Program-made: the position numbers and the translations under genes | Notes under the pieces: generated by a model | The model's database searches: none | What the model saw: the letters and a program-made list of their open reading frames with translations, nothing else | Told to the model about the DNA's origin: nothing | In this document: positions 1,549-10,112 of the stretch, piece by piece | Position numbering within the stretch: position 1 is the stretch's first letter | Layout: the number at the start of each line of letters is the position of its first letter | Source of the DNA: Clostridiales bacterium | GTDB taxonomy: Bacteria > Bacillota > Desulfitobacteriia > Desulfitobacteriales > Desulfitobacteriaceae | DNA length: 10,112 bases | Assembly: GCA_027357125.1 (NCBI GenBank) | Contig: DAHVVW010000040.1 | Span: 1 to 10,112, forward strand | Direction of reading: 5' to 3'

Positions 1549-2202
1549 ATGGTGTCAAGCAACAAATTGTTTGAAGAGCCAGGCCTAAAACAAATTACGG
1601 TTTGGGCCCGAGGAGTTTATGAGAACAAGGAAGCCCGCGACGTGGTTGTCGCCTTGACTGAAGCTGCAGCCAAGGAAGGGAAGTATGTTCAAGCTTGGGA
1701 GAACTATGTTGATTTGCCAGATCGCATTTATGTTCCGGTCCGTGCCTACGGCAAAATCAGTGATCAGCCGATCGAGTCCAAGTATGTTTATGAAAATGAA
1801 ACCCCTGATATTGTGGTTTTGACCGAAGAGACTCTAGTCAAAGGGATTGACATCTTAGAAGGTATCAGACCTGGTGCCGTCTTGGTTGTTAACACAAAAA
1901 GACCTGCCGAATATCTATTCAAATTTATCACCAAAGGCACTGAAAATCTAAAATCGATCATCACAGTTGATGCTTCAAGCTTAGCTAAATCAATTATCAC
2001 GCTCTCCGGTGCCGAGGGTGCAACGGATGCATCCGGTATCGGTAAAGGACTTGGTGCTCCTCTGGCGGCAGCAGTAGTTAAGGCCACTGGAATTGTAACG
2101 TTTGAAAATCTTCTCAGCATCATCGCTAATAAGCAGGCTGCTAAAACTGCTTATGACAAAGCTCAGGTTGTGGAAGTGAAAAGATTAGTTAATGCCGGTT
2201 AG
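1549..2202 (+). CDS. Oxalate oxidoreductase gamma subunit (PFOR domain III type)
   Basis: A 217-residue protein starting at an ATG with a strong upstream GGAGAGGAGG. Size, position and overall pattern fit the gamma subunit (domain III) of 2-oxoacid:ferredoxin oxidoreductases, including VVALTEAAAKEGKYVQAW near residues 28-45 and the late stretch GKGLGAPLAAAVVKATGIV. The N-terminal glycine motif normally seen in this family (GRGGQG) is replaced by ARGVYENKEARD. In PFOR this domain takes part in coenzyme A binding. OOR uses no CoA, so loss of the motif fits an oxalate-specific enzyme (inference). It is the first of four tightly spaced enzyme genes and has its own ribosome binding site. In Moorella OOR this domain is fused to the ferredoxin domain that follows; here a stop and a 35-base gap separate them. 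Alone the protein might be annotated as pyruvate:ferredoxin oxidoreductase gamma; the neighbouring alpha and beta chains decide the substrate. Confidence 0.8.
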   Translation: MVSSNKLFEEPGLKQITVWARGVYENKEARDVVVALTEAAAKEGKYVQAWENYVDLPDRIYVPVRAYGKISDQPIESKYVYENETPDIVVLTEETLVKGIDILEGIRPGAVLVVNTKRPAEYLFKFITKGTENLKSIITVDASSLAKSIITLSGAEGATDASGIGKGLGAPLAAAVVKATGIVTFENLLSIIANKQAAKTAYDKAQVVEVKRLVNAG

Positions 2203-2237
2203 GATTAACGAAATATTTTTGCAGGAGGTGCAAGACA

Positions 2238-2525
2238 GTGAGTATATCCCCAAATGAAGTACCGTTCGCCGGAACCGTGCCTTCGCCCAAGACTGAAAAT
2301 GAAGGAATGATTACCGGCAGCTGGCGAACCCGCCGTCCGATCTTAGATACGGACAAATGCACGGAATGCCTTATTTGCTGGATTAGTTGTCCCGATTCAT
2401 CCATTAAATCCACCACCGCGGGAATGGAGTTTAACTTGAAATACTGCAAGGGCTGCGGTATTTGCAACGAAGTTTGTCCGGTAGGGGCCATCAGTTTGGT
2501 GCCTGAATTAGACTTTGAGGATTAG
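2238..2525 (+). CDS. Oxalate oxidoreductase delta subunit, 2x[4Fe-4S] ferredoxin
   Basis: A 95-residue protein starting at GTG, 7 bases after a canonical AGGAGGTG (2223-2230). After a roughly 33-residue N-terminal extension typical of PorD-like subunits it has two [4Fe-4S] binding motifs: CTECLICWISCP (Cys 41, 44, 47, 51) and CKGCGICNEVCP (Cys 70, 73, 76, 80). In the complex these clusters carry electrons from the thiamine-pyrophosphate site and its proximal cluster in the beta chain to external ferredoxin. The gene sits between gamma and alpha, with gaps of 35 and 21 bases, so all are expected to be made together. Gamma plus delta (217 + 95 = 312 residues) is close to the length I recall for the fused chain of Moorella OOR (about 315), suggesting the same architecture split in two. 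The family call is firm; assignment to OOR rests on the neighbours. Confidence 0.87.
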   Translation: MSISPNEVPFAGTVPSPKTENEGMITGSWRTRRPILDTDKCTECLICWISCPDSSIKSTTAGMEFNLKYCKGCGICNEVCPVGAISLVPELDFED

Positions 2526-2546
2526 ATTGTAGGAGGTGAATGAAAA

Positions 2547-3734
2547 ATGGGAGTTGTCAAGCGAATTTCCGGTTGCGTAGCGACTGCCACGGCAGTGAAG
2601 CTCGCTGACGTTGATGTCATTTGTTCGTATCCAATTCGTCCCTATACAGGGATTATGTCTGAGCTGGCGCGCATGGTGGCCGATGGGGAATTGGATGCAG
2701 AGTTTGTTTATGGTGAAGGGGAACACGGGCAGTTAAGCGTTGTCTATGGTGCCTCCGCCTCAGGAGCCCGTACTTTCACTGGAAGTTCAGGCGTGGGCGT
2801 CACCTATGCCATGGAAGTGTACTCCCCAATATCCGGGGAAAGGCTTCCGGTTCAGATGGCAATTGCCGACCGAACACTGGACCCGCCGGGAGACTTCGGT
2901 TCGGAACATACGGATGCACTGTGCTGCCGTGACCAGGGCTGGATTCAGGGTTGGGCGGCCACACCGCAGGAAGCGTTGGATATGACCCTTATGTACTACC
3001 GGATCGGAGAAGATCCCCGTGTGCTCTTGCCCCAATATGCCTGTCAGGACGGATATTTCGTATCCCATATTTTAGGGGAGGTAGACATCCCCGAAGCTGC
3101 CAAAGTCAAAGAATTCTTGCCACCTTATAAAAACCACCATGTGCTGGATGTACGCACCCCCCAGATCATTGGTGCCCAGATGGAGCCCAAAATGGGACCG
3201 GGCATGCAGTACCAGCGTTATCAGGCAATCGAAGGTTCCCGTAAGGTGATCGAAGAAGTCCATGATGAATTCGGACGGCTTTTTGGACGCAAATATAACC
3301 CATGGGTCGAAGAGTTTATGACCGATGATGCAGAAGTTGCGCTCTTCATTCAGGGCGGCCACGCTGAAACCGCGAAAACAGTCGTACGTCGTCTGCGCAA
3401 CCTCGGGGAAAAAGTCGGTTTAGTTCGTTTGCGGACCTTCCGTCCGTTCCCGACTCAGCAAGTCCGTGATGCGCTTTCGAAATTTAAGGTTGTCGGAACA
3501 GTGGATAACTCCGTGAACTTTGGTATTTCCGGAGCCGCCGGTGTGCTCTTGACTGAGGCGCGCACTGCGATGTACGGTATGGGTGACAAAATCCCAACGG
3601 TAGGTTTTGTGGCAGGTTTAGGCGGAGAAATGATTACCCACGATGAGTTCTATAAAATGTTTATGAAATTAAAAGAGATTGCTAAAGCCGGAAAAGCGGA
3701 TAAAGAGAACTACTGGCTGCCATTCGAACTGTAA
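2547..3734 (+). CDS. Oxalate oxidoreductase alpha subunit
   Basis: A 395-residue protein with an ATG start after AGGAGGTG (2531-2538). It has the alpha-chain fold of the PFOR superfamily: the pyrimidine-binding domain I with the TPP-activating glutamate (E59 in YGEGEHGQ), and domain II from about residue 260 (ALFIQGGHAETAKTVVRRL onward). The usual substrate motif YPITP is YPIRP here, placing Arg at position 31. The segment DRTLDPPGDFG supplies R109, D112, D116 and F117. These are the residues I recall from the Moorella thermoacetica OOR structures as oxalate-binding and switch-loop residues, at identical numbering. OOR converts oxalate to two CO2 and reduces ferredoxin by two electrons, without CoA. 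With the beta chain it forms the cytoplasmic catalytic core. Automatic annotation would probably say pyruvate ferredoxin oxidoreductase; the Arg-31 signature argues against pyruvate. Confidence 0.9.
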   Translation: MGVVKRISGCVATATAVKLADVDVICSYPIRPYTGIMSELARMVADGELDAEFVYGEGEHGQLSVVYGASASGARTFTGSSGVGVTYAMEVYSPISGERLPVQMAIADRTLDPPGDFGSEHTDALCCRDQGWIQGWAATPQEALDMTLMYYRIGEDPRVLLPQYACQDGYFVSHILGEVDIPEAAKVKEFLPPYKNHHVLDVRTPQIIGAQMEPKMGPGMQYQRYQAIEGSRKVIEEVHDEFGRLFGRKYNPWVEEFMTDDAEVALFIQGGHAETAKTVVRRLRNLGEKVGLVRLRTFRPFPTQQVRDALSKFKVVGTVDNSVNFGISGAAGVLLTEARTAMYGMGDKIPTVGFVAGLGGEMITHDEFYKMFMKLKEIAKAGKADKENYWLPFEL

Positions 3735-4694
<960 letters not shown>

Positions 4695-4989: not shown

Positions 4990-5010
4990 TTTGTGCATTA
5001 TTTTGTGCAT
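4990..5010 (+). repeat. Tandem TTTGTGCAT repeat before the transporter
   Basis: TTTGTGCAT occurs at 4990-4998 and again at 5002-5010, a 12-base period (about one helical turn), 29-49 bases before the transporter start. Direct repeats with this spacing can bind a regulator on one face of the DNA, but with two short copies chance is possible. Confidence 0.35.
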
Positions 5011-5038
5011 GAAAAGAAAAAGGAGGGTGGTCTGTGTT

Positions 5039-6316
5039 ATGGAAAGCAGCCAAAGTCTCAACCCTAAAGAAGTTTATGGTCCGATTTTAGGGAATCGCTG
5101 GGTCCAGCTGATATCTGCAGTTATTGCCATGATCATGATTGCTAATTTACAGTATGCCTGGACTTTGTTTACACCTAGCCTTAAGACAGCTTTTGGTGCC
5201 TCCCTGACGGCGATTCAATTTGGGTTTACGCTGTTTATCTGGTTTGAAACCTTTGCCCAGCCGATTGAAGGGTATTTGCTGGACCGTTTTGGGCCCCGCA
5301 TGTTCTTTACCGCTGCAGGAGTAATGGTTGGTGTCGGTTGGACAGGAATGGGTCTTGTTGAATCGTTAAAGGGTCTTTACTTCTTTTATGCTTTGGCCGG
5401 ACTTGGTGCCGGGTTCATTTACGGTGGCAGTGTTGCCGTAGCCATTCGCTGGTTCAGCGACAAACGCGGTTTAGCCGCAGGCATAATTGCAGCTGGCTTT
5501 GGTGCCGGTTCTGCCCCGTTTATCCCGATTATTGGCAACATTATCAAAAATTCCGGCTATCAGTCAGCATTTATCTCCACCGGTATCTTCCAGGGTCTCG
5601 TAATCTTAATCGTTGCTCAACTCTTGCGTTATCCCCCCGGCAATCAGAAACACGCTGCCCATGCTCAAGTAGATGACAGTGATCCTAATCGAGGCTTCAA
5701 ACCCTGGGAGGTTTTGCGCCAACCTCAATTCTACTTGATCTATATGATGTTCCTCTTTATGACAATCGGGGGTTTGCTGCTCACCGCGAATGCCAAGCCG
5801 TTTGCTAAAGATGTCGGTGTAATCCAGTATTTCGTTATTTTAGGGGTTACCCTCGACCGTATCGGCAACGGAGGTGGCAGGATATTCTGGGGCTGGCTCT
5901 CCGATAAGTTCGGTCGGGAAAACATCATGTTTATCGGCTTTACCCTCAATGCCATATTCACCGCAACTTTCCCGTTCTTCGGCACGAGCGGCTGGGGTTA
6001 CGTTATTTGGATGTTCCTTATCATGGGGACATGGGGTGAACTGTTCTCCCTCTTCCCGTCATTAAATGCAGACCGCTTTGGGACTACCTTTGCCGCCAGC
6101 AACTATGGCCTTCTCTATAGTGCCAAAGGATTTGGTGGTATTTTAGGAGGGGTCGTTGCAACTGCGATTGCCAGCACCTATGGCTGGACAGTGGTATTTG
6201 TGGGCTCAGGTATTCTAGCTTTCGCCTCCGCATTAGGCGCTCTGATTGTTAAAAAGCTGCCTAAACCCACACGCCCGGGAATGTCTATAGATAAAGGAAT
6301 CAGCGAGGGAGTCTAA
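5039..6316 (+). CDS. OxlT-like oxalate transporter (OFA-type major facilitator)
   Basis: A 425-residue, strongly hydrophobic membrane protein with about twelve predicted transmembrane helices. The start is ATG 5039, preceded by AAGGAGGGTGG (5020-5030); the frame could extend to 4991, but that would add a basic peptide without a Shine-Dalgarno. It resembles Oxalobacter OxlT throughout: LGNRW near the N-terminus, QYAWTLF in helix 1, DRFGPR and SDKRGLAAG in the loop motifs, and GNGGGRIFWGWLSDKFGR around helix 8. R281 in that motif and K363 in NYGLLYSAKG line up with OxlT R272 and K355, the positive residues that bind oxalate in the membrane. OxlT exchanges oxalate for formate. In a cell that oxidises oxalate with OOR the counter-ion could differ (for example bicarbonate) or uptake could be proton-coupled; that is inference. 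Its place directly after the OOR operon supports oxalate as substrate. Length is close to OxlT (418 residues). Confidence 0.88.
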   Translation: MESSQSLNPKEVYGPILGNRWVQLISAVIAMIMIANLQYAWTLFTPSLKTAFGASLTAIQFGFTLFIWFETFAQPIEGYLLDRFGPRMFFTAAGVMVGVGWTGMGLVESLKGLYFFYALAGLGAGFIYGGSVAVAIRWFSDKRGLAAGIIAAGFGAGSAPFIPIIGNIIKNSGYQSAFISTGIFQGLVILIVAQLLRYPPGNQKHAAHAQVDDSDPNRGFKPWEVLRQPQFYLIYMMFLFMTIGGLLLTANAKPFAKDVGVIQYFVILGVTLDRIGNGGGRIFWGWLSDKFGRENIMFIGFTLNAIFTATFPFFGTSGWGYVIWMFLIMGTWGELFSLFPSLNADRFGTTFAASNYGLLYSAKGFGGILGGVVATAIASTYGWTVVFVGSGILAFASALGALIVKKLPKPTRPGMSIDKGISEGV

Positions 6317-6612: not shown

Positions 6613-7077
6613 TTGCCTGATGAACAAGCCAATATTAATATTTCCCTAATAAACAAGAAGGTTCTTCCTGGGAAACATGTCTTTATAGTGTATAATAGTA
6701 AAGAGTGGGCCAGTGGCGGGTTAGAACAAATAATTTCTCAGAGTTTATCCAGTTGTGGGCAAGACAAGGTAAAAAATCTTAGTCAGAAAATTCTCCAGGA
6801 AAATATGGGCTATCGTTTCTTTGTTCAAACTAAAGTTCAGGAAGAACTTATGCTCAAGGGATTGCTGTTAAAGGAGGTTTCGCAACGCCCACTTATCGGC
6901 TCGCGCGTGAGCATAAGGGAAAACCTTAAAGACAAAACCCTGCTCAGAAGAAAACTTCCATTACTGCAGGTTATGCTGGAGCAATTTGCCAGCCAGGAGC
7001 CGGAACTAGCTAAGCTTCTGGCTAAAGATGTAGCGAAAAGTTTAATGCCCCCGGTAGCTGCCGGACTGTTCACATAG
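6613..7077 (+). CDS. Unrecognised small protein upstream of carbonic anhydrase
   Basis: A 154-residue frame starting at TTG 6613. I do not recognise the family. It has no signal peptide, no transmembrane helix, no cysteine-metal motif and no repeat. The N-terminal part reads like an alternating beta-strand/helix region (VLPGKHVFIVYNSKEW). The C-terminal half is rich in Leu, Lys and Glu and probably helical (LLRRKLPLLQVMLEQFASQ), ending in LMPPVAAGLFT. The start is uncertain: no Shine-Dalgarno precedes TTG, and the frame is open back to a stop at 6553-6555 without an ATG or GTG. An in-frame GTG at 6688 also lacks a good site. The gene could therefore be poorly translated or 5'-truncated. It ends 15 bases before the carbonic anhydrase start, so the two are likely cotranscribed. 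Coding is supported by length, sensible composition and tight coupling. Confidence 0.6.
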   Translation: MPDEQANINISLINKKVLPGKHVFIVYNSKEWASGGLEQIISQSLSSCGQDKVKNLSQKILQENMGYRFFVQTKVQEELMLKGLLLKEVSQRPLIGSRVSIRENLKDKTLLRRKLPLLQVMLEQFASQEPELAKLLAKDVAKSLMPPVAAGLFT

Positions 7078-7092: not shown

Positions 7093-7632
7093 ATGAATAT
7101 AATTCCGGTACAGGTTGAAAGCGATATTTTTCCTACTTATCAGGCTACTCCGGTCGGGCGCTTACTGGAGTATCATAATCTAAAAAAACCTCATGACAAA
7201 TATTCGGCCCCGGAAATCTTAATCGGGATGTGTATGGATCACCGTAAGAGCCTGATAATCCCTCCTAATTTTGCGTATATCATCCGGACAGGGGGAGGGA
7301 ACCTGCGCTATAACGAGTTTAAGGTATCCTATGCTATAGGAGTAGGAAACGTAGGAGCAATCGCTCTCATTGCCCATAACAATTGCGGTATGGTTAATTT
7401 GATGTCCAGGAAGTCGGACTTTGTTAATGGATTGGTCACTAAAGCCGGGTGGGATTATGCCCAGGCTGAGGAACACTTTCTCAATTTCGCCCCGATGTTC
7501 GAGATTGATAATGAATTGACCTTTGTAGTCAGCGAAGCGAAAAGGCTGCGCTGGCGTTATCCGAAAATCCAGGTCGCACCGTTATATTATAAAGTTGAAG
7601 ATAATTTGCTTTATCAGATAGAAGAAGGGTAA
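7093..7632 (+). CDS. Compact beta-class carbonic anhydrase
   Basis: A 179-residue cytoplasmic protein with an ATG start after AGGGGAG. It has the beta-carbonic anhydrase zinc signature: C47 in CMDHR and H95 plus C98 in HNNCG are the three expected zinc ligands, and D49/R51 form the catalytic dyad of the C-x-D-x-R motif. The segment IRTGGGNLR (64-72) replaces the usual RNAG loop, and the helix before HNNC reads YAIGVGNVGAIALIAH. The length matches the short bacterial and archaeal forms. The enzyme interconverts CO2 and bicarbonate. Beside an oxalate-oxidising operon, which yields two CO2 per oxalate, it could convert CO2 to bicarbonate for export, pH balance or carboxylation; this link is inferred from position. 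Catalytic residues are present, but the divergent RTGGG loop leaves open an altered activity. It forms a two-gene unit with the preceding unknown protein. Confidence 0.85.
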   Translation: MNIIPVQVESDIFPTYQATPVGRLLEYHNLKKPHDKYSAPEILIGMCMDHRKSLIIPPNFAYIIRTGGGNLRYNEFKVSYAIGVGNVGAIALIAHNNCGMVNLMSRKSDFVNGLVTKAGWDYAQAEEHFLNFAPMFEIDNELTFVVSEAKRLRWRYPKIQVAPLYYKVEDNLLYQIEEG

Positions 7633-7704: not shown

Positions 7705-7733
7705 TTGAGAATATACAGATAATGGTATATAAT
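7705..7733 (+). promoter_or_regulatory. Sigma-A promoter for the second oxidoreductase operon
   Basis: TTGAGA (7705-7710) and a perfect TATAAT (7728-7733) are separated by 17 bases, the ideal spacing for housekeeping sigma factor. Transcription would start near 7740, about 113 bases before the ferredoxin subunit gene. Confidence 0.75.
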
Positions 7734-7767
7734 TATGACCAGGTGATAAATTATTACCTGGTCATAA
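7733..7767. promoter_or_regulatory. 35-bp dyad over the transcription start, likely operator
   Basis: TTATGACCAGGTGATA (7733-7748) pairs with TATTACCTGGTCATAA (7752-7767) around a 3-base centre, with one G-T mismatch/wobble in 16 positions. It begins at the last base of the -10 box and covers the predicted start, the classic place for a repressor site. The inner ACCAGGT/ACCTGGT arms are the best candidate contacts. Alternatively it is a 5' RNA hairpin, or, because AAATTTTCT follows, a terminator for the carbonic anhydrase transcript. Confidence 0.6.
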
Positions 7768-7852
7768 ATTTTCTGAAATCAGTAAGTCTGAACTGGATTT
7801 TGGTTTCTGCCTGCGGTACACAAGTGAAATGAGAATGTGGGGAGGGATTTTG

Positions 7853-8068
7853 ATGCAAAAGGTTTCTTTTGATGAAGACCGGTGTAAGGGGTGTGAACTT
7901 TGTGTCGGGGCCTGCCCAGTAAACATTATTTATTTGGGAGAGAATTTGAACGCAATGGGTTATCATCCGGCCCAGGTACATGAGCAGGGCAAATGTATCT
8001 CCTGCGGTTTTTGTGCCAGGATGTGCCCTGATGTAGCCATCACAGTCTGGAAGGAGGGTGCCAGATGA
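7853..8068 (+). CDS. korD: 2-oxoacid:ferredoxin oxidoreductase delta subunit (ferredoxin type)
   Basis: A 71-residue protein. The start ATG 7853 is chosen because GGGGAGGG (7839-7846) lies 6 bases before it; the in-frame ATG at 7829 has no such site. It carries two [4Fe-4S] motifs: CKGCELCVGACP (Cys 11, 14, 17, 21) and CISCGFCARMCP (Cys 48, 51, 54, 58). The spacer LGENLNAMGYHPAQV is typical of KorD/VorD subunits. It passes electrons from the catalytic beta subunit to soluble ferredoxin. It heads a delta-alpha-beta operon and its stop overlaps the next start (ATGA), indicating translational coupling. Substrate range (2-oxoglutarate versus branched-chain 2-oxoacids) cannot be read from this subunit. 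Confidence 0.88.
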   Translation: MQKVSFDEDRCKGCELCVGACPVNIIYLGENLNAMGYHPAQVHEQGKCISCGFCARMCPDVAITVWKEGAR

Positions 8069-9189
8069 GCAAGGCTCTCATGAAGGGGAATGAGGCTCTG
8101 GCAGAAGCGGCAGTGCGCGCCGGCTGCCGATACTTCTTCGGTTATCCCATTACTCCCCAGAACGAGATACCAGAGTATTTATCCTGGAGACTGCCTGAAA
8201 TGGGAGGGGTTTTCATTCAGGCTGAGTCCGAGCTGGCGGCGATTAACATGGTCTATGGGGCAGCAGGTTCGGGTGCCAGGGTGATGACTTCTTCCTCCTC
8301 GCCTGGGATCAGCCTCAAACAAGAAGGAATAAGTTACATAGCGTGTGCGGAACTGCCATGTGTAATCGTTAATATGATGCGTGGAGGCCCGGGGCTCGGG
8401 GGAATACAGCCTTCTCAGGGAGACTATTTTCAGGCTGTGAAGGGCGGCGGGCATGGAGATTATCACCTTTTGGTTCTGGCTCCGGGCACGGTTCAGGAGA
8501 TGGCTGATTTGGCTGTTAAGGCCTTCACTTTGGCAGACGAATACCGCAACCCGGTAATGATCCTGGGGGACGGAATTTTGGGCCAGATGATGGAGGGGGT
8601 AGAGCTTCCGGAATTCCAGAACCTTGCTGCCCTGCCCTCAAAGCCCTGGGCCACAACCGGTGCTCAGGGGCGTGAACGCAATATCATAAATTCTCTTTAT
8701 CTTGAACCTGAAGAACTGGAGAAAGTGAATCTCAAGCTTCAACGCAAATACCGTTTGATGGCGGAGAAGGAAACCCTGGCGGAAAGTTATTTGACTGAGG
8801 ACGCAGACATCGTATTAGCTGCCTACGGTACTGCCGCCAGAATTGCCAAAGCGGCGGTGGATAGAGCGCGTGCTGCCGGAATTAAGGCTGGGCTGTTCAG
8901 GCCGATTACTCTTTATCCCTTTCCCGCGCAGGAACTTCGTCGAGCGTGTAAAGCTGCCAAGCATGTGCTGACGGTTGAGTTCAGTTCCGGACAATTCGTG
9001 GAGGATGTGCGCTATTACCTTGAGTTTAAAGTGCCGGTACATTTTTATGGCCGGGTTGGGGTTGTGCCGACTACACGGGAAATTTTAGAAGAGATTACGC
9101 ATTTGGCTGGGAACGATGTGGGGAAAAGGTCTTACGCCCAGGCCGTAGACTGGACAGGGATGCGTGGCGCGAATCGTCAGACGAAGTAA
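8065..9189 (+). CDS. korA: 2-oxoacid:ferredoxin oxidoreductase alpha subunit (KorA/VorB)
   Basis: A 374-residue alpha chain whose ATG overlaps the korD stop by four bases. It has YPITP (27-31), the normal substrate motif of 2-oxoacid enzymes, in contrast to YPIRP in the OOR alpha chain at 2547-3734. The TPP glutamate lies in [19 protein letters not shown] (E56), followed by [14 protein letters not shown] and RGGPGLGG, which are characteristic of KorA/VorB. Domain II begins near residue 250 ([21 protein letters not shown]). With the beta chain it oxidatively decarboxylates a 2-oxoacid with CoA to an acyl-CoA and CO2, reducing ferredoxin, or works in reverse. Many databases would name it 3-methyl-2-oxobutanoate dehydrogenase subunit VorB; 2-oxoglutarate or branched-chain oxoacids are both possible. 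Length is normal and no damage is seen. Confidence 0.9.
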
Positions 9190-9242
9190 AGATTTCTATG
9201 CCGCATTGCGGAACGACTAATGAAAGGCAGGGGGAAAGCCAA

Positions 9243-10112
9243 ATGACAATAGTCTATGAACGCCCGCAAAGCCTAACAGAAGTTAAGACTCACTATTGTC
9301 CGGGCTGTACGCATGGGATCATCCACCGCCTGATTGCCGAGGTTTTGGACGAACTTGAGGTCCGAGAGCAGACGATCGGGGTGGCTCCGGTCGGCTGCGC
9401 TGTTTTGGCTTATAAGTATTTCAATGTGGATATGCATCAAGCTGCGCACGGGAGGGCGCCGGCTGTTGCCACCGGGATCAAAAGAGTTAACCCGGATAAA
9501 GTTGTGTTTACTTACCAGGGAGATGGGGATTTGGCGGCCATTGGCACGGGGGAAATTATTCATGCTGCGGCTAGGGGAGAAAAATTCACGACCGTGTTTG
9601 TTAACAACGCAATCTATGGCATGACCGGAGGACAATTAGCGCCGACAACGCTGGCCGGCCAGAATTCCACAACTTCACGTGACGGGCGCAGCCCACACAG
9701 CCACGGTTACCCGATCCGCATTTCTGAAATACTTGCTACCCTTGAAGGAGCAGCCTATATTGCCAGGGTTTCCGTCCATAATCCTGCCGAGGTTGTGAAG
9801 GCCAAGCAAGCTATCAGGACAGCCTTTCAGGCCCAGATCGAAGGCAAGGGGTTTACCCTGGTTGAGGTCCTTTCCAGCTGCCCGACCAACTGGGGACTTT
9901 CTCCCCGGGAAGCACTTGCTTGGGTGAGTACGAATATGATTCCATATTATCCCTTAGGGGTGAAGAAAGAGTTAGGGCAGGGGCTAGAGCAAGGGCTAGA
10001 GCAAGGGCTAGAACAGGGAATAGAGCAAAGCAAGCGTGCGATGGCAAGGAGGTTGATTGCTAAGGGAGTGGAGGTGGAACTGATTGCAGAGGTGACTGGT
10101 TTGTCATTGACC
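9243..10112 (+). CDS. korB: 2-oxoacid:ferredoxin oxidoreductase beta subunit with Rpn-like tail (3' end outside window)
   Basis: The ATG at 9243, preceded by GGCAGGGGGA, begins a frame that is open to the window end (290 residues seen). Residues 1 to about 240 are a complete beta chain. Cys 19 and 22 (CPGC), 52 (VGC) and 213 (SSC) bind the proximal [4Fe-4S] cluster. [12 protein letters not shown] with [12 protein letters not shown] forms the TPP/Mg site, and the end [14 protein letters not shown] is where KorB proteins normally finish. Here the frame continues: ELGQ, then three GLEQ units and one GIEQ, then SKRAMARR and [18 protein letters not shown]. This matches the C-terminal tail of Rpn/PD-(D/E)XK transposase-like proteins (charged-Q/G repeats, then A-x-x-L-x-x-G-x-x-x-x-x-I-A-x-x-T-G-L-S). 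The gap after alpha is 53 bases. Any gamma subunit gene would be beyond the window. Catalysis should be intact; the tail's effect is unknown. Confidence 0.88.
9981..10028 (+). repeat. Four 12-base tandem repeats encoding G-L/I-E-Q
   Basis: GGGCTAGAGCAA occurs twice exactly (9981-9992, 9993-10004), then as GGGCTAGAACAG (10005-10016) and GGAATAGAGCAA (10017-10028). A degenerate ELGQ codon set precedes it (9969-9980). The repeats lie in frame within the beta-subunit tail, encode four-residue helical units, and could expand or contract by slippage without a frameshift. Confidence 0.85.

Follow-up and report, generated by a model that had tools for sequence, protein, structure and literature searches.

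Results

An open reading frame at the end of the contig

The window, i.e. the whole stretch of DNA that was analysed, is a complete contig (C318) of 10112 bases with nothing beyond 10112. It belongs to a genome bin (G000) that comprises 383 contigs with a total of 2.2 Mb and is 76% complete. On the forward strand the list of open reading frames gave a frame of 305 codons (9198-10112) without a stop up to the contig end. Its probable start is at 9243, matching the first Met of P0002, the KorB of an NCBI metagenome-assembled genome (Desulfitobacteriaceae bacterium). A first-pass annotation of this DNA had described the KorB frame as running without a stop into GLEQ repeats and a foreign tail, and the open frame agreed with that description. 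Within the frame we distinguished a native part encoding a KorB-type beta subunit of 2-oxoacid:ferredoxin oxidoreductase (9243..9974, + strand), a GLEQ-coding tract of 12-bp repeats that holds the junction (9975..10028, + strand) and a stretch from the 3' part of an Rpn-family gene, encoding its C-terminal region and truncated where the contig stops (10029..10112, + strand). Translated, the order was KorB, GLEQ repeats, 27 Rpn-type residues and a single Thr before the end of the contig.

Upstream, the ORF at 8065..9189 (+ strand) encodes a putative KorA-type alpha subunit, named by synteny with L003, which has an ORF in the same place upstream of KorB. The contig carries two gene sets of the 2-oxoacid:ferredoxin oxidoreductase type, at 1549-4694 and 8065-10112, in a region colinear with contig C21 of the same-genus genome G001. 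Subunit names in the first set were assigned by eye from the sequence. Between the two sets lie an MFS transporter gene (4991-6316, PF07690) and two small ORFs. No Pfam match was obtained for the ORF at 6613-7077 (154 residues) or for that at 7093-7632 (179 residues). By eye the latter may resemble a carbonic anhydrase (CMDHR, HNNCGM). No + strand ORF of at least 80 residues starts between 7632 and 8065, a region that includes an 18-bp tandem repeat of 2.2 copies at 7731-7770 (TRF).

The beta subunit and the Rpn-type tail

To the Pfam models, searched at E up to 10, the protein gave a match to TPP_enzyme_C (PF02775, E=7.6e-22), the TPP-binding domain of the beta chain. The subfamily model TIGR02177 (PorB_KorB-type) scored 120 bits (E=1.3e-34), below its curated cut-off of 261.9. 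The name KorB was taken from the annotations of close relatives, e.g. P0132, and the substrate is putative. The KorB part was identical to P0002 at 253 of 256 residues and 90% identical to the copy of the same genus. The DNA alignment with G001 spanned 9243-9969 of the gene, and the protein was native up to KK (9963-9968). As for the operon, the alpha-type ORF lies upstream of KorB on the window contig and the gamma gene on a second contig, C121, whose adjacency is drawn from synteny. This would be the order found for the KorB/PorB-type beta subunits of Paradesulfitobacterium ferrireducens and other Desulfitobacteriaceae-type relatives.

The end of the protein matched the C-terminus of the Rpn family model TIGR01784 with E=2.9e-7 for the whole protein and 9.9e-9 for the last 81 residues, residues 261-304 aligning to model positions 224-267 of 273. 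The scores (30.6 and 35.4 bits, respectively) were below the whole-protein cut-off of 52.1, as is expected of a fragment. In a protein search with residues 236-305 the top match was P0001, a full-length Rpn protein of 308 residues with a PDDEXK_2 nuclease domain (PF12784, E=1.2e-65). Over repeats and tail 42 of 46 residues were identical to P0001. The 27 residues past the repeats (278-304) were identical throughout, 27 of the 28 codons in 10029..10112 giving the P0001 residue, and chance or low complexity could therefore be ruled out. A search for relatives of P0001 gave 924 matches, the named ones among the best 120 being mostly Bacillota.

As in the RpnS region of the Rpn family (TIGR01784, PF12784), GLEQ-type four-residue repeats are followed in the tail by these 27 residues, and we concluded that it is an Rpn C-terminal domain with four-residue repeats, as the first-pass annotation had proposed. 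That annotation had also noted the lack of the nuclease domain, and in the Pfam scan at E up to 10 PF12784 gave no match in the window protein. From Rpn nucleases the protein thus differs in having no nuclease domain and in a C-terminus lost at the contig end. According to PMC10327210, Rpn C-terminal domains are dimerising three-helix bundles with an antitoxin role, and dodecamers in the gene give them four-residue repeats that vary. The helical, possibly self-associating character suggested for the tail is in line with this for Rpn C-terminal domains generally. The same paper reports that Rpn genes move horizontally and vary in dodecamer repeat number.

The repeat tract holds the junction

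A 12-bp tandem repeat of 4.7 copies with 81% matches was found by TRF at 9973-10028, coinciding exactly with the switch from KorB to Rpn and coding for the 19 residues after KK (9968). Its two ends belong to different proteins: GQGLEQGL (9975-9998) is present also in the native KorB P0002, and the 10 residues coded by 9999-10028 occur also in the Rpn protein P0001. The junction is somewhere inside the 9975..10028 tract. The repeats had all been credited to the Rpn side before, which had to be corrected, as P0002 shows LGQGLEQGL, at least, to be a native part of KorB. Since korB and the Rpn gene use one and the same register for their tracts, no frameshift arises at the junction.

KorB ends in related genomes

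P0002 shares 12 residues with the window through GLEQGL, then continues with RLGLGPEKELREGVAHA and ends without Rpn sequence; its stop is deduced from the protein record. The contig of P0002 is 7891 bases long. This ending resembles that of the KorB copy of the same genus (GVASA). In the best-scoring related loci, 29 in number and each from a different genome, korB always had its stop 6-18 residues past PLG (29/29), unlike the window KorB, which has none. Among the 120 KorB-like proteins retrieved, 117 had 5-18 residues after PLG; extended tails were found in P0002 (30 residues), P0004 (48) and P0121 (48).

The first-pass annotation had proposed that the same fusion be sought in related genomes. 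It was looked for and not found: the junction occurred in none of the 29 related loci and in none of the 120 KorB-like proteins listed. Of the 357 proteins retrieved, all compared by BLAST, 120 were KorB-like and 82 matched the tail, and none did both; each search listed its best 120 matches, in two cases out of 8000 and 227. The 27-residue Rpn stretch was absent from all 120 of the KorB-like proteins among these matches. A search of species-representative contigs matched 34 loci, and, as judged by residues matched, none but L057 extended over the end of KorB and the Rpn tail alike. L057 (P. ferrireducens) was rejected as a fusion, as its alignment runs across the KorB stop codon.

Continuation of the operon on a second contig

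In G001 the gene order is korA, korB, korC (POR domain, PF01558) and a prismane/Hcp-type gene, with korB closely overlapping korC. The window aligned with G001:C21 in four colinear blocks, the last ending at 9969. Contig C121 of the same bin (4518 bases) was colinear with G001:C21 from its base 104 on, leaving a gap of 25 bases on G001 between the window and C121 matches. Within G000, the top match to KorC (85%) and the sole match of prismane type (88%) were both on C121, arranged as they are in G001.

When the initial 36 bases of C121 were compared with the GGGCTAGAGCAA unit they scored 14, a value reached by 0 of 1659 stretches of the window and 0 of 741 other stretches of C121. For the first 105 bases the score was 16, reached by 0/283 and 0/124 control stretches, yet by 19 of 2000 single-base shuffles. 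The start of C121 thus resembles, at the level of sequence, the 12-bp repeat in a decayed form. The ends of the window contig and C121 did not overlap by 10 bases or more, and exact matches of the window tail to the opening 120 bases of C121 were no longer than 8 bases. Because the ends share no overlap, it is from synteny that we infer the two contigs to be adjacent. The open readings of the C121 start (QRPEQRLEPETG or KAGAKAG...VFNA) did not match the end of P0002. Very likely a decayed GLEQ-type tract contains the native korB end of G000 and is the place where the assembly broke.

Search for the parent gene of the tail

Rpn-type genes were present in 31 of the 61 genomes searched, G000 included. 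The parent gene of the tail was not found in the G000 bin, where the best other match was C95, 42% identical to P0001 residues 150-304. C95 (L116:1190-1639, - strand) is a partial Rpn-type gene (PDDEXK_2, 6.7e-10) and not the tail donor. A DNA search revealed no second copy of the tail in G000 or in three relatives, the next matches having E of at least 0.08. When the search was done at the protein level, only weak Rpn-type relatives of the tail appeared, with at best 50% identity in G001 and 33% in C95. In viral contigs a degenerate pattern of the tail gave 0 matches. Either the parent gene was left out of the bin, or it is missing, or it comes from a different organism.

Discussion

How could a catalytic beta chain come to end in an Rpn tail? 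The comparison of sequences points strongly to an assembly chimera, formed where korB and an Rpn gene each have a GLEQ tract, and we hold this to be very probably the correct explanation. Most likely, the organism itself does not have the fusion. The korB of this Paradesulfitobacterium-like species would have its own short GLEQ-coding 12-bp tract near the 3' end, before korC; Rpn genes have a similar dodecamer tract where the C-terminal domain begins. A short-read assembly could then have passed from korB into the similar tract and out in the Rpn tail, ending about 84 bases further on. The real korB would run on past its tract and stop close to korC, the gene that would open C121. This explanation builds on direct observations, namely a frame made of two parts, the way P0002 natively ends, the synteny of C121 and the repeat-like start of that contig; that the jump happened in the assembly and not in the cell is what we infer from them. 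With chimeric contigs of short-read metagenomes the present case, a probable chimera recognised by sequence comparison, shares a fragmented bin and a switch inside a short tandem repeat close to where the contig stops. The chimera was among the options of the first-pass annotation, and the P0002 end, the stops of the relatives and the synteny of C121 now make it the best one.

The other option given there, that a metabolic enzyme had captured the tail of a mobile gene, found no support, as the 99% identical KorB P0002 ends differently, the 29 relatives stop soon past PLG and the expected continuation of the operon is found elsewhere in the bin, on C121. A rival explanation would be a real cellular recombination between the 12-bp tracts, yielding a korB::rpn-tail fusion in this strain or in some of its cells. 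Recombination could take place at the GLEQ-coding sequence of both genes, PMC10327210 reports Rpn genes to be mobile with variable repeat numbers, and such genes are common in the genomes searched. The retained frame might be added, but it is weak evidence, since any jump between 12-bp repeats in the same register retains it. Against recombination speak the lack of the tail in P0002 and in all of the relatives examined, the korC with a repeat-bearing leader on C121, and a chimeric part of only about 84-140 bases that halts at the contig end. We regard it as improbable; what room there is for a real recombinant comes from the missing overlap between C318 and C121, the unmatched P0002 ending and the lack of an Rpn parent in the bin. 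Slightly less probable still is a broader version, in which recombination between GLEQ dodecamer tracts put an Rpn antitoxin-like dimerisation domain on the beta chain in some of the population and the KorB tails of 30-48 residues with GLEQ/LEQG are decayed traces of earlier exchanges. If the fusion were real, a core metabolic enzyme would have gained a domain of the phage-defence antitoxin type by way of a 12-bp repeat.

An Rpn gene or tail inserted between korB and korC would make both the fusion and C121 real, with more sequence between them. It would fit two contigs without overlap and repeat-like DNA on both sides, but the korB of P0002 ends without Rpn sequence and korB closely overlaps korC in G001, and we consider such an insertion very unlikely. 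The idea that KorB of this lineage simply inherits the tail vertically, as an ordinary part of the protein that is Rpn-like in look only, has a next to negligible chance of being right. The extended tails of the close relatives P0002, P0004 and P0121 would speak for it, the first of them with GLEQGL. It is contradicted by P0002, by the lack of any match to the 27-residue Rpn stretch among the 120 KorB-like tails and by the exact match of that stretch to a full-length Rpn protein, P0001.

The probable chimera carries a warning: when unrelated genes have short in-frame repeats in common, protein fusions that look convincing but are false can arise at contig ends, and these find their way into protein databases. 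With their dodecamer repeats and their frequency here (matches in 31/61 genomes), Rpn tails are likely to act as donors. The KorB tails of this small clade may be mildly interesting in themselves, as they exceed those of the other retrieved relatives in length and variability; one of them, that of P0002, contains the tetrapeptide motif of the Rpn repeats.
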